Origin: Sphingomonas alba
GTDB taxonomy: Bacteria > Pseudomonadota > Alphaproteobacteria > Sphingomonadales > Sphingomonadaceae
Direction: 5' to 3'
Length of the DNA stretch: 64,000 nt
NCBI RefSeq assembly: GCF_023516555.1
Contig: NZ_JAMGBD010000001.1
Location: forward strand, 1 to 64,000
Positions within the stretch are counted from its first letter, which is position 1. Each line of letters starts with the position of its first letter. The notes beneath the pieces are model-generated. The model was not told where the DNA came from. It ran no database searches and worked only from the letters and a program-made list of their open reading frames with translations. Below, in pieces: positions 61,346 to 64,000 of the stretch. Position numbers and translations under genes: made by a program.

Positions 61346-62455
61346 ATGAAGATCGCGGTCCTTAGAGAAGCGGACGGCGAAACCAGGGTCGCCGCCATTC
61401 CCGAGACGGTGAAGAAATTCATCGGCCTCGGAGCTCAAGTCGCCGTCGAATCCGGTGCCGGCGAAAAGGCCGGGATCAGCGATTCCGACTATAAGGACGC
61501 GGGCGCCAGCGTCGCCGGCCGAGCCGCGGCGCTGAAGGACGCCGGCATCATCCTCTGCATCGCCGGGCCGGATCCGGCGACTCTGAAAGGCGCGGCCAAG
61601 GGCGCCATGCTGGCGGGCGCGCTCGATCCAGCCCACCGCGCGGGCGACATTGCCGCCTACGCCAAGGCGGGGATTGAGCCGCTGGCGATGGAGAAAATGC
61701 CGCGGATCACGCGCGCGCAGTCGATGGACATCCTGTCCTCGCAGTCGAACCTTGCCGGTTACAAGGCCGTCGTCGATGCCGCCGCCGTTTATGGCCGGGC
61801 CTTGCCGATGATGATGACTGCGGCCGGGACGGTCAGCGCCGCCAAGGTCTTCGTCATGGGAGTCGGCGTGGCTGGCCTTCAGGCAATTGCAACCGCGCGC
61901 CGGCTCGGCGCCCAGGTGAGCGCCACCGACGTCCGTTCGGCGACGAAGGAGCAGATCCTTTCGCTCGGCGCCAAGCCGATCTTCGTCGAGGGTGTTGCCG
62001 GCATAGAAGGCGAAGGGCAGGGCGGTTACGCAAGCGAGACCAGCCCCGAATACCAAAAAGCGCAGGCTGAGCTGGTATCGGGTCACATCGCCAAGCAGGA
62101 TATCGTCATCACCACGGCATTGATCCCGGGGCGCCCTGCGCCGCGCCTGATCAGCGACGCGCAGCTGGCCTCCATGCGGCCGGGCAGCGTCATCGTCGAT
62201 TTGGCTGCTGAGGCAGGCGGGAATGTGGAAGGTACTAGCCCCGGAAAGACCGTCGTTCGCCACGGCGTCACCATCGTCGGCGCGGTCCAGCTGGCGCGCA
62301 CTTTGCCAGCGGATTCATCCGCGCTCTTCGCCCGCAACCTTTATAATTTCCTCAGCGCGTTCTGGGACAAAGAGGCGGGGAAGGTCGATCTTCCGGCCGA
62401 TGACGAAATCGGCAAGGCGCTCCGAGTCGCAGTGACTGAAGACGCAGTCGGCTAA
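61346..62455 (+). CDS. pntAA: NAD(P) transhydrogenase alpha subunit, NAD-binding part
   Basis: A 369-residue soluble domain I protein: the AlaDh_PNT N-terminal half (KIAVLREADGETRVAAIPETVKK, read in parts) and the C-terminal Rossmann half with AAGTVSAAKVFVMGVGVAGLQAIATARRLGA and the mobile loop region. It binds NAD(H) for the proton-pumping transhydrogenase. It contains no membrane part; the PntAB and PntB genes that normally follow are not in the window, because a minus-strand unit and an EAL gene come next. Confidence 0.94.
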   Translation: MKIAVLREADGETRVAAIPETVKKFIGLGAQVAVESGAGEKAGISDSDYKDAGASVAGRAAALKDAGIILCIAGPDPATLKGAAKGAMLAGALDPAHRAGDIAAYAKAGIEPLAMEKMPRITRAQSMDILSSQSNLAGYKAVVDAAAVYGRALPMMMTAAGTVSAAKVFVMGVGVAGLQAIATARRLGAQVSATDVRSATKEQILSLGAKPIFVEGVAGIEGEGQGGYASETSPEYQKAQAELVSGHIAKQDIVITTALIPGRPAPRLISDAQLASMRPGSVIVDLAAEAGGNVEGTSPGKTVVRHGVTIVGAVQLARTLPADSSALFARNLYNFLSAFWDKEAGKVDLPADDEIGKALRVAVTEDAVG

Positions 62456-62490: not shown

Positions 62491-62530
62491 CCCCAAAAGA
62501 AAAGACCGGCCAGTCTTCCTGGGCCGGTCT
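62491..62530 (-). terminator. Rho-independent terminator of the microprotein gene
   Basis: Perfect 9-bp stem AGACCGGCC (62503-62511) and GGCCGGTCT (62522-62530) with a 10-nt loop. On the minus strand it is followed by TTTCTTTTGGGG, a good U tract. On the plus strand no T tract follows, so it serves the minus strand rather than pntAA. Confidence 0.88.
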
Positions 62531-62561
62531 AATCTATAAAAAACTCAATGGTTTGGGCGGA

Positions 62562-62642
62562 TCAACCGCCGCTGCCGGCGTTGCTCCAGCCACCGCCAAA
62601 GAGCCAGCTCCAGAAGCCCTTCACGGGCGGACGCTTCTTCAT
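62562..62642 (-). CDS. Unlisted 26-residue Trp-rich microprotein
   Basis: On the minus strand ATG 62640-62642 opens a 26-codon frame ending at TGA 62562-62564. The peptide starts MKKRPPVKGFWSWLFGGGW and ends SNAGSGG. It is basic at the start, with three Trp and two Phe in the middle and a glycine-rich end, which could lie on a membrane surface. AAGGGGGAG stands eight bases before the ATG, a near-ideal promoter lies 50-77 bp upstream and a strong terminator 32 bp downstream. I recognise no family. Translation is inferred, not proven; the unit could also act as a small RNA. Confidence 0.7.
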   Translation of the reverse strand: MKKRPPVKGFWSWLFGGGWSNAGSGG

Positions 62643-62690
62643 GGGACAACTCCCCCTTTGTTACGTGCGAATCACGTCGGCACGTCGGGG

Positions 62691-62719
62691 ATATTAACCC
62701 TAATGGATATGGTTATCAA
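62691..62719 (-). promoter_or_regulatory. Promoter of the microprotein gene
   Basis: On the minus strand TTGATA (62714-62719) and TAATAT (62691-62696) with a 17-bp spacer. The predicted transcript would start near 62684, carry a leader of about 40 nt with a strong Shine-Dalgarno (62651-62658) and end at the terminator, about 190 nt in all. Confidence 0.7.
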
Positions 62720-62863
62720 ACGATTAACTATTTCACCTCAGATCGGGCCGCAAAGCACATGGCCGGTGCCTCAAAGCACAGCGCTGACTCTGCCGCGATC
62801 AAGCAACCGCGAACGAGTATTTGTTAACTATTTGGGGAATGGCGCCTATATTGGCGCTTTGAC

Positions 62864-64000
62864 TTAAGCCGCTGTGCGGCGGCGCTCGACGAGCAGGCGA
62901 CGGACGATCTCTTCGTAGCTCATCGGCCGACCGACGATGAAGCCTTGGGCGATGTCGCATTTCAGCATCGTCAGCTGCTCGAGGCTTTGCGGGTCCTCGA
63001 CGCCTTCGGCGACGACGGTCCGCCCAAGCGAATGGGCGAGGGCGATCGTCGACTGCACCATGATGAGGTCGCTGCGGTTGTCGCGCATCGATTTGACGAA
63101 GCTCTGGTCGATCTTGATCTCGCTCGCGGGAATCTTCTTCAAATACTCCAGCGTCGACAGGCCAGTGCCGTAATCGTCGATGGCAATCTTGACTCCCAAC
63201 TCACGCAAGCCCGCCAGCAGCTCAATGCCATAGCCGGTGCCCGACACGGCAGCCGTCTCGGTCAGCTCGAGCGTCAGCTTGCCGGGCTCCAGCCCATGCT
63301 TGTCGAGGACCGCCGCGACCCTTGCCGGCAGGCGCCGGTCAGTCAGCATGCGTGCTGACAGGTTGACGGCGATTTCGAATTCGATGCCGCGCTTGCCGAT
63401 GTTTGCCGCGGCCTCGACCGCTTTATCGAGGACGAAGTCGGTCAGCGGCTCGATGCGGTCATGCTGCTCGGCGGCGGAAATGAATTCCACCGGGCTGATC
63501 GGGCCCTTTTCAGGGTGAGTCCATCGCGCCAGCGCCTCGGCGCCGATCGTCCGCCGCGTCGCCAGGTCCAGCTTGGGCTGGTAGGCGAGCCAGACCTCCC
63601 CATTCTCGATCGCCTTGTCGAGCTGGGACAGGAGGGAAAGCCGCCACGGCACGTCTTCAAGCCGGGCGGGATCGTGGAATTTCCACTTGAGCGATTCCGT
63701 GTCGGCATCGTCGGCGGCGACCAGGGCGCTGCCGAGACGGCTCGTCGGCGAGCGGCTGCTGCCAAGCTCGACACCGAAGCTGAGCACGGCATCGATGCTG
63801 GTTCCGCCGACCCGGACCGGGCTACGAAACAAGGCGTGCAGCGCATCCAGGTGCGATGCGAAAGGCGTGCCCTTGGGAGCGAACCATGCAAAAATTCCCT
63901 CGTCGCCCTGGTAGATGCGGCGATTTTCCTGGCCCAAGGTCAGGCGGGCCACGATTTGTTCGATGAACTGCCGCTCGCCGGCGGCATCGAGTGTCGATGC
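62864..64000 (-). CDS. EAL-domain protein with degenerate GGDEF, 5' part beyond the window
   Basis: The frame is open to the right edge (positions 63953-64000 still encode protein), so this is the C-terminal 378 residues. The first part resembles a degenerate diguanylate cyclase domain: the GGDEF site appears as YQGDEGIFAW. The EAL domain follows with GAEALARW, VNLSARML, ELTETAAV, IDDYGTGLSTLEYL and KIDQSFVKSM, and looks catalytically competent. It probably degrades c-di-GMP, with the GGDEF remnant as sensor. The GTG at 63950-63952 is not its real start. Confidence 0.92.
   Translation of the reverse strand, partial: ASTLDAAGERQFIEQIVARLTLGQENRRIYQGDEGIFAWFAPKGTPFASHLDALHALFRSPVRVGGTSIDAVLSFGVELGSSRSPTSRLGSALVAADDADTESLKWKFHDPARLEDVPWRLSLLSQLDKAIENGEVWLAYQPKLDLATRRTIGAEALARWTHPEKGPISPVEFISAAEQHDRIEPLTDFVLDKAVEAAANIGKRGIEFEIAVNLSARMLTDRRLPARVAAVLDKHGLEPGKLTLELTETAAVSGTGYGIELLAGLRELGVKIAIDDYGTGLSTLEYLKKIPASEIKIDQSFVKSMRDNRSDLIMVQSTIALAHSLGRTVVAEGVEDPQSLEQLTMLKCDIAQGFIVGRPMSYEEIVRRLLVERRRTAA

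Follow-up and report, generated by a model that had tools for sequence, protein, structure and literature searches.

Membrane-associated small proteins and the CtrA regulon are the described systems that come closest to the microgene reported here. SpoVM of Bacillus subtilis is a 26-aa amphipathic membrane peptide. MgrB is a small-protein regulator of membrane signalling with a transmembrane segment, and HfiA is a small-protein regulator in Caulobacter. In MinD, basic residues precede the targeting helix, which has a Gly-Gly end. HfiA is named in the abstract of PMC9648850, and a passage of PMC6803595 describes the MinD/FtsA-type amphipathic helix, located at the protein end, as binding membranes peripherally. 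For CtrA, the relevant passages of PMC6180460 give the consensus and associate sites near −35 with activation, half-sites that cover the −10 being tied to repression. A CtrA site is likewise described in part of PMC9437464, and retention of CckA-ChpT-CtrA in Sphingomonadales is stated in part of PMC2877005.

The peptide considered here resembles the MinD/FtsA-type targeting sequences in its predicted short amphipathic helix and in its presumed peripheral membrane binding. It differs from them in that the helix is nearly the whole protein, is rich in Trp, spans about 8–10 residues and is attached to no ATPase or FtsA fold. With SpoVM, taken from its general description, it would share size, stand-alone amphipathic nature and developmental regulation, whereas the regulator and the phylum are different. 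MgrB and HfiA, likened by description, are also tiny proteins tied to membrane signalling or adhesion control, but the peptide is too short for a transmembrane segment of the MgrB kind. The CtrA-regulated alphaproteobacterial genes treated in parts of PMC6180460 and PMC9437464 have in common with the microgene a TTAA-N7-TTAACCAT site over the −35. The product of the microgene, however, is not a known regulon member, and its control by CtrA is read here from sequence.

Gene Layout at the Locus

The microgene sits in the window, the whole stretch of 64,000 nucleotides that was analysed, between pntAA (61346–62455, plus strand) and an EAL gene (62864 onward, minus strand). Its features and those of its surroundings are the following.

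62562..62642, minus strand: 26-codon microprotein gene, MKKRPPVKGFWSWLFGGGWSNAGSGG, with TGA stop (frame reading, homologues, pN<pS)
62650..62658, minus strand: Shine-Dalgarno sequence (SD) AAGGGGGAG, 7 nt 5′ of the ATG
62714..62719, minus strand: −35 element TTGATA (sigma-70 scan)
62691..62696, minus strand: −10 element TAATAT, overlapped by a TTAA half-site (promoter scan, recurrence in relatives)
62709..62727, minus strand: candidate CtrA-type full site TTAA-TCGTTTG-ATAACCAT, 11/12 consensus bases, overlapping the −35 (consensus of PMC6180460)
62687..62691, minus strand: UCCCC, 5′ strand of the leader clamp, predicted to pair with the SD (pairing tests, fold; start site predicted)
62651..62655, minus strand: GGGGA, 3′ strand of the predicted leader clamp, within the SD (pairing tests, fold)
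62663..62677, minus strand: predicted inner leader hairpin ACGUG-AUUCG-CACGU (minimum-energy fold; the centroid pairs differently)
62668..62674, minus strand: TGATTCG, extended CcrM/GcrA motif in the leader (motif of PMC7987155)
62495..62530, minus strand: intrinsic terminator with 9-bp stem, 10-nt loop and U-rich tail (sequence, fold; GC-rich hairpins behind homologues)
62864..64000, on to genome position 65182, minus strand: CHASE2-EAL gene, putative upstream partner (frame of 772 aa, domain search, adjacency)

The preliminary description had assigned to this gap a complete minus-strand unit, and its parts are indeed in place. TTGATA (62719–62714) and TAATAT (62696–62691) are separated by 17 bp. 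The 26-codon frame opens with ATG at 62642, closes with TGA at 62564–62562 and encodes three Trp, two Phe, a basic N-terminus and a Gly-rich C-terminal end. The perfect 9-bp terminator stem AGACCGGCC/GGCCGGTCT (62530–62522 / 62511–62503) encloses a 10-base loop and is followed by a T-rich tail. Two details had to be amended: the SD is present but lies seven bases from the ATG, not eight, and the neighbouring EAL gene, rightly recognized, passes the window end (772 aa when read from the genome). The CtrA-type site, the leader-SD pairing and the fixed link to the CHASE2-EAL gene are additions to that description.

A sigma-70 promoter scan of 4 kb returned two sites, the microgene promoter among them, against a shuffle mean of 0.5. 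The terminator is missing from the scanner output because scanner loops were limited to 3–8 bases, while the loop here has 10. On the plus strand, at 62548–62697 of the window, there is a 49-aa frame antisense to the microgene.

Conservation Within the Genus

When 61 genomes were searched with the peptide, 34 had a match at E ≤ 10; every match at E ≤ 0.016 came from the same genus, with 48–62% identity, and the same-genus matching loci that were read share the layout of the window. A profile of 24 same-genus loci (A1) was then applied to 71 genomes of the genus (Sphingomicrobium). It matched 65 of them at E ≤ 1, of which 60 were judged real, each with a clear ORF including SD and stop. These 60 genomes yield 62 ORFs because G030 and G036 each have a second tandem copy; in both (L061 and L062) the two microgenes carry their own promoter block, leader and downstream hairpin. 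The start codon is ATG in 61 ORFs and GTG in one. A G-rich SD of the AGGGG, CGGGG, AGGGA or AGGAG type precedes all 62, as picked by a script that favoured starts having an SD.

The weak A1 matches in G004, G063 and G068 were confirmed by their position behind the EAL gene. Those of G072 and G081 were dropped as located elsewhere, the ORF of G072 being found instead behind its EAL gene, and second weak matches inside some genus genomes were dropped as well. Reading downstream of the EAL gene revealed the ORF in 8 further genomes, in forms too divergent or short for a confident A1 match: MAKNNTQTRRWVIWDIWRELIGGGNGGTGGAG and two similar peptides, MKRKTETRGVLYDILARIFGGGSGNTGSAG (which has no Trp), MWSYLFGCGWR, MWSWLFGCGWR, MKKRFNIWNWLIGSGGSGAGGTA and MKKQTRGFWDLLGWFWR.

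Substitutions in the 62 ORFs are mainly synonymous. pN was lower than pS in 1821 of 1891 pairs (mean pN 0.35, mean pS 0.60), and the pooled dN/dS across 954 closer pairs was 0.55, the pairs in both counts not being independent. The clearest single case is G014 against G064, whose identical 28-aa peptides are encoded with 7 synonymous differences and 0 others. In the nine-codon core, two invariant Gly codons differ at the third base only. Loss or frameshifting of the frame in relatives had been named beforehand as evidence against a gene, and synonymous change as the check in its favour; the frames are kept (60 of 71 genomes plus 8), the synonymous excess is there, and start, SD and stop are retained with the frame in the genus genomes. 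It had also been argued that such elements would hardly line up around a non-gene, and the recurrence of frame, SD, promoter block and terminator in relatives bears this out. The 26-codon frame is thus almost certainly a real gene. Selection is, on the codon evidence, acting on it at the protein level, and we infer its translation from this evolutionary record.

Distribution Beyond the Genus and Novelty

A second profile (A2, 61 rows) was searched in a family sample of 298 genomes from 96 genera. Matches at E ≤ 0.05 were found in 43 genomes of 18 genera, a few weak ones being chance; 5 of the 43 belong to the own genus and 38 lie outside it. With 38 of 298 sampled genomes matched outside the genus, the family is either patchy or too divergent to detect. 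Twenty-five extra-genus loci were read, with ORFs such as MAKRTKQPVRGFWDWLLGGGWSN, MKTKKAVYPAPTKRGFWDWLMGGGWKNG and MRTNATRKPTQPAKGFWDWLFGGSYL, and most have a clear SD and a GC-rich terminator. A more diverse alignment (A3) was searched in 296 genomes of the order and matched 31 at E ≤ 0.01, all of them Sphingomonadaceae; among 289 genomes of the class, the own genome gave its only credible match. One match of the class search, inside a 4548-aa frame, was dropped, as was the A2 match of G246 at E 0.0016, which lies inside the EAL gene of that genome (C64:62158); the G246 ORF was found downstream instead. The homologues, of 11–42 aa and from Sphingomonadaceae, share the core [F/L/I]W-x-W-L-x-G-x-G-W.

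Scanning named genomes with a DNA pattern returned 24 stretches; the microgene ORF accounts for 22, at loci that overlap the other sampled genomes. Carriers include Sphingomicrobium lutaoense, Sphingomonas rhizophila and Sphingomonas ursincola, Blastomonas natatoria and Blastomonas aquatica, Chakrabartia godavariana and Parasphingopyxis marina. Pattern matches titled Aminicenantes and Rhodobacteraceae are chance. A locus titled Rhodospirillales (L234) encodes a peptide identical to that of the Sphingomicrobium genome G035 beside an EAL gene 67% identical to that of the window, and is probably a mislabelled bin.

Among described families no counterpart was found. The 24 A1 members have no useful match in Pfam, where one member touches Actin at E 0.95, and no match in NCBIfam; 3 of the 24 match PHROG 29326 weakly (E 0.016). 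In Rfam, 14 loci gave no family at gathering score, and matches at E 0.09–4 below it were taken as chance. The PDB sequences hold no match to the peptide. Phages gave none to the window peptide, and a Blastomonas-type query against plasmids returned three records at chance level (E 4–8). The open-licence literature gave no description of the peptide family among the matches listed, and one may exist in other print. The initial impression of an undescribed-looking microprotein is in agreement with the Pfam, NCBIfam, Rfam (gathering score), PDB and literature searches, and we are apparently dealing with an undescribed Sphingomonadaceae family of ultra-short Trp-rich peptides.

Linkage to the CHASE2-EAL Gene

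Domain search identified CHASE2 and EAL domains in the product of the upstream gene. Inspection of this protein by eye added membrane segments, EAL motifs that are intact and a GGDEF-like region that is degenerate. The protein is predicted to be a c-di-GMP phosphodiesterase.

The EAL gene was found in 68 of the 71 genus genomes. The three genomes lacking it are 72–83% complete and show no credible ORF match. Since the ORF is present in 60 genomes by profile and in 8 as a divergent form, all 68 EAL-bearing genomes carry it behind that gene. Row by row, the EAL gene group lies upstream of 61 of the 62 ORFs; in the remaining row (G090) the script chose an overlapping frame, and the EAL gene was located there too. 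Similarly, in other genera the gene is upstream in 27 of 29 loci examined, the exceptions being L130/G249 and L164/G479, and in named records it is upstream in 20 of 22 true loci, the exceptions being B. aquatica and one Blastomonas bin (L238, L247).

Starting from the EAL side, the 20 best extra-genus homologues (E ≤ 1.5e-161) have the ORF behind 19; in the twentieth (G249) the ORF and its promoter are at a different place. Among 35 weaker extra-genus homologues that were fetched, the ORF was found in 9, four of these being loose 12–14-aa matches, and four other weak homologues (G138, G178, G183, G287) have it. EAL paralogues were judged to have no such ORF behind them, neither those of the genus (4 of 4) nor the second copies of other genera (6 of 6). 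Four script matches were dismissed by eye as chance: a 57-aa TTG frame at the second EAL copy of G149, flagged by the script as core-bearing, and Trp-containing frames in G235, G245 and G249.

The two genes are separated in G249 (L130, L180), L238 and L247. In G249 the microgene retains the promoter and downstream neighbour of related genomes and therefore looks like an autonomous unit. G075 (L071) has an EAL gene broken into two frames and an intact microgene. The gene on the far side of the microgene differs between lineages, which makes the EAL gene the linked neighbour. Comparison of the genomes shows the position of the microgene behind the CHASE2-EAL gene to be fixed. Shared position is no proof of a physical or functional partnership, and that the peptide is a functional partner of the EAL protein we regard as a real possibility, just short of an even balance.

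Promoter and the CtrA-Type Site

A promoter block, GGTTAAT-n6-GCTAACCAT-n-ATTAAGGTTAATAT, recurs in the relatives. It contains TTAA-N7-TTAACCAT, that is, the CtrA full site and its TTAACCAT variant. The consensus is matched at 9/12 or better in 61 of 62 promoters and at 10/12 or better in 45 of 62, against 5.5% and 0.5% of shuffles, respectively; these shuffles were generated as random dinucleotide walks, of which some came out shorter than the source sequence and those below 40 bases were excluded. With at most one mismatch allowed, the whole genome has 15 CtrA-type sites (two of which overlap), and the reversed control motif has 0. The genome encodes a CtrA equivalog (NF045991, 420.6 bits, cut-off 350; PDB match 4qpj, CtrA), and a CtrA-type motif lies 48 bp from the start of its ctrA, between two divergent ORFs, either of which it could serve. 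From these motif counts, the microgene is probably CtrA-controlled.

Other CtrA-type sites of the same genome stand before genes whose products were assigned by eye: a second CHASE2-like protein (G000:C1:807284, L254), a chemotaxis receptor-like protein and two spore-coat-U-like proteins (L256, L260 and L262 of G000). The last three sites suggest a CtrA regulon for motility and adhesion.

The leader also carries a match to YGAKTCK, an extended CcrM/GcrA motif that a passage of PMC7987155 reports in Caulobacter. On either strand it occurs in 42 of 62 leaders, against 4% of shuffles, and is absent in 20. It lies downstream of the predicted start and within the leader hairpin, and may be either a methylation site or a loop sequence. 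The GcrA gene is present in the genome.

Leader and the Predicted SD Clamp

The predicted transcript begins with bases that are able to pair with the SD, as UCCCC/GGGGA in the window, and both sides of this clamp change together across species (CUGCUCCC/GGGAGCAG, GUCCCC/GGGGAC, UGCCC/GGGCA). Pair counts were not taken from the MAFFT alignment, which covered 39 of 62 leaders, because helices were misaligned in it; direct pairing tests were employed instead. Leaders paired with their own SD gave a mean of −13.2 kcal/mol against −10.6 kcal/mol for permuted pairs, and none of 2000 between-species permutations was as strong. By helix score, none of 5000 permutations equalled the own pairs, and the result was the same (0 of 5000) when the 41 leaders without an initial TCC were taken alone; these permutation tests ignore relatedness. 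Helices of 5 bp or longer are present in 58 of 62 leaders; in seven leaders (G007, G008, G009, G025, G067, G076, G082) the start was set ~3 bases late, which may make their helices score too low. Leader-SD pairing is kept across species, with the best helix missing the SD in 8 of 62. The window leader alone is no more stable than mononucleotide shuffles (z −0.15), and in the whole-transcript fold the clamp is part of the minimum-energy structure and absent from the centroid. Judged from this pairing, the clamp is rather likely to act on translation.

A structured leader would also suit a dual-function RNA, one of the two roles considered in the preliminary description, or a mainly regulatory RNA, in which the ~200-nt transcript acts as an sRNA and the peptide is secondary. 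Such an RNA could make use of the 5′ hairpin, the C-rich 5′ end and the strong terminator; leader pairing and terminator recur, the predicted transcript, terminator included, folds better than shuffles (z −2.54), and there is a weak sub-threshold Rfam likeness to SdsR and RcsR1 (E 2.7 and 3.5). Conservation of the ORF nevertheless follows codons, the frame is retained even at 11 codons, and the Rfam scan of 14 loci reached the gathering threshold for no family, which leaves an RNA with a secondary peptide an unlikely reading.

Peptide Properties and Membrane Association

In a set of 96 peptides (identical sequences included) the length is 11–38 residues with a median of 26, one homologue outside the set having 42; Trp makes up 11% and Gly 24% of residues. 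The segment N-terminal to the core is net positive in 76 of the 96 and negative in 1. The hydrophobic core has about 8–10 residues. Its helical moment, computed over 8 residues, averages 0.47, on average the 73rd percentile of own shuffles, which is a modest amphipathicity. AlphaFold2 folded a 35-aa homologue with one helix at residues 19–28 (10 residues, VRGFWDWLFG, pLDDT about 75), in a model that is weak overall (mean pLDDT 66, pTM 0.23). On balance, these calculations and the model favour a peptide that would bind the membrane peripherally; membrane association, the other role considered in the preliminary description, is plausible.

Type I toxins, small membrane-damaging peptides silenced by RNA structure or antisense RNA, come to mind for a short, aromatic and basic peptide with its SD paired in the leader and with tandem copies in G030 and G036. 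The core of 8–10 residues is, however, too short to span a membrane and does not qualify as a transmembrane segment. The sigma-70 scan placed no antisense site in the window ORF, its sole plus-strand site being at 62824, and no phage matched while plasmid matches stayed at chance level. Unlike mobile toxin loci, the microgene is in most genomes of the genus present once, at a single locus, and it is linked to a signalling gene. We consider a toxin improbable. Equally improbable is a secreted or exported signalling or antimicrobial peptide under CtrA control. Cationic, Trp-rich and Gly-rich short peptides are often membrane-active, which would fit this composition, but no signal peptide was seen by eye and the recurring neighbour groups include no constant transporter or modification gene.

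Three Trp codons in a short ORF followed by a terminator hairpin recall the trp leaders, yet a leader peptide or attenuator would have to control a downstream gene; pntAA, which comes next, is convergent, different lineages have different genes downstream, and the Trp positions are kept within a motif with Gly and Leu, so that attenuation is very improbable. That the ORF is a product of chance, lying where the 3′ region of the EAL gene is conserved, is barely conceivable: short frames are common (92 ORFs ≥20 aa in 6 kb), but chance does not explain why dozens of genomes share one frame with its start, SD, stop and motif and show a synonymous bias.

Proposed Mechanism and Significance

The model we favour, if only slightly when taken as a whole, is that of a CtrA-activated, translation-gated membrane peptide that modulates or positions the neighbouring phosphodiesterase. 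In the first step, CtrA would bind over the −35 and activate transcription of the microgene, and therefore the peptide would be made in the CtrA-active cell state. The leader clamp would then restrain translation until it is opened. Once made, the peptide may bind to the cytoplasmic face of the inner membrane through the short amphipathic aromatic helix GFWSWLFGG, aided by the basic N-terminus. In the last and weakest step, it could dock on or near the membrane-bound CHASE2-EAL enzyme and tune its activity or location, by which it would couple CtrA to c-di-GMP. Support for these parts likely falls in the order of CtrA-activated transcription, SD clamp, membrane-bound peptide and phosphodiesterase modulation.

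More tentatively, the peptide might be a dedicated subunit, down to 11 residues in size (MWSWLFGCGWR), which is switched by CtrA and controls or localises the CHASE2-EAL enzyme, with the SD clamp as a second control layer, possibly sensitive to temperature, to an sRNA or to the CcrM/GcrA cycle. If true, such a subunit would rank with the smallest known regulatory proteins that are conserved.

Selection apparently acts on these peptides even at a length of 11 residues, a kind absent from the curated family libraries that were searched. As the apparently undescribed gene has a clear genetic partner, its function is directly testable. For the Sphingomonadaceae, the arrangement suggests a direct signalling link from CtrA to c-di-GMP.
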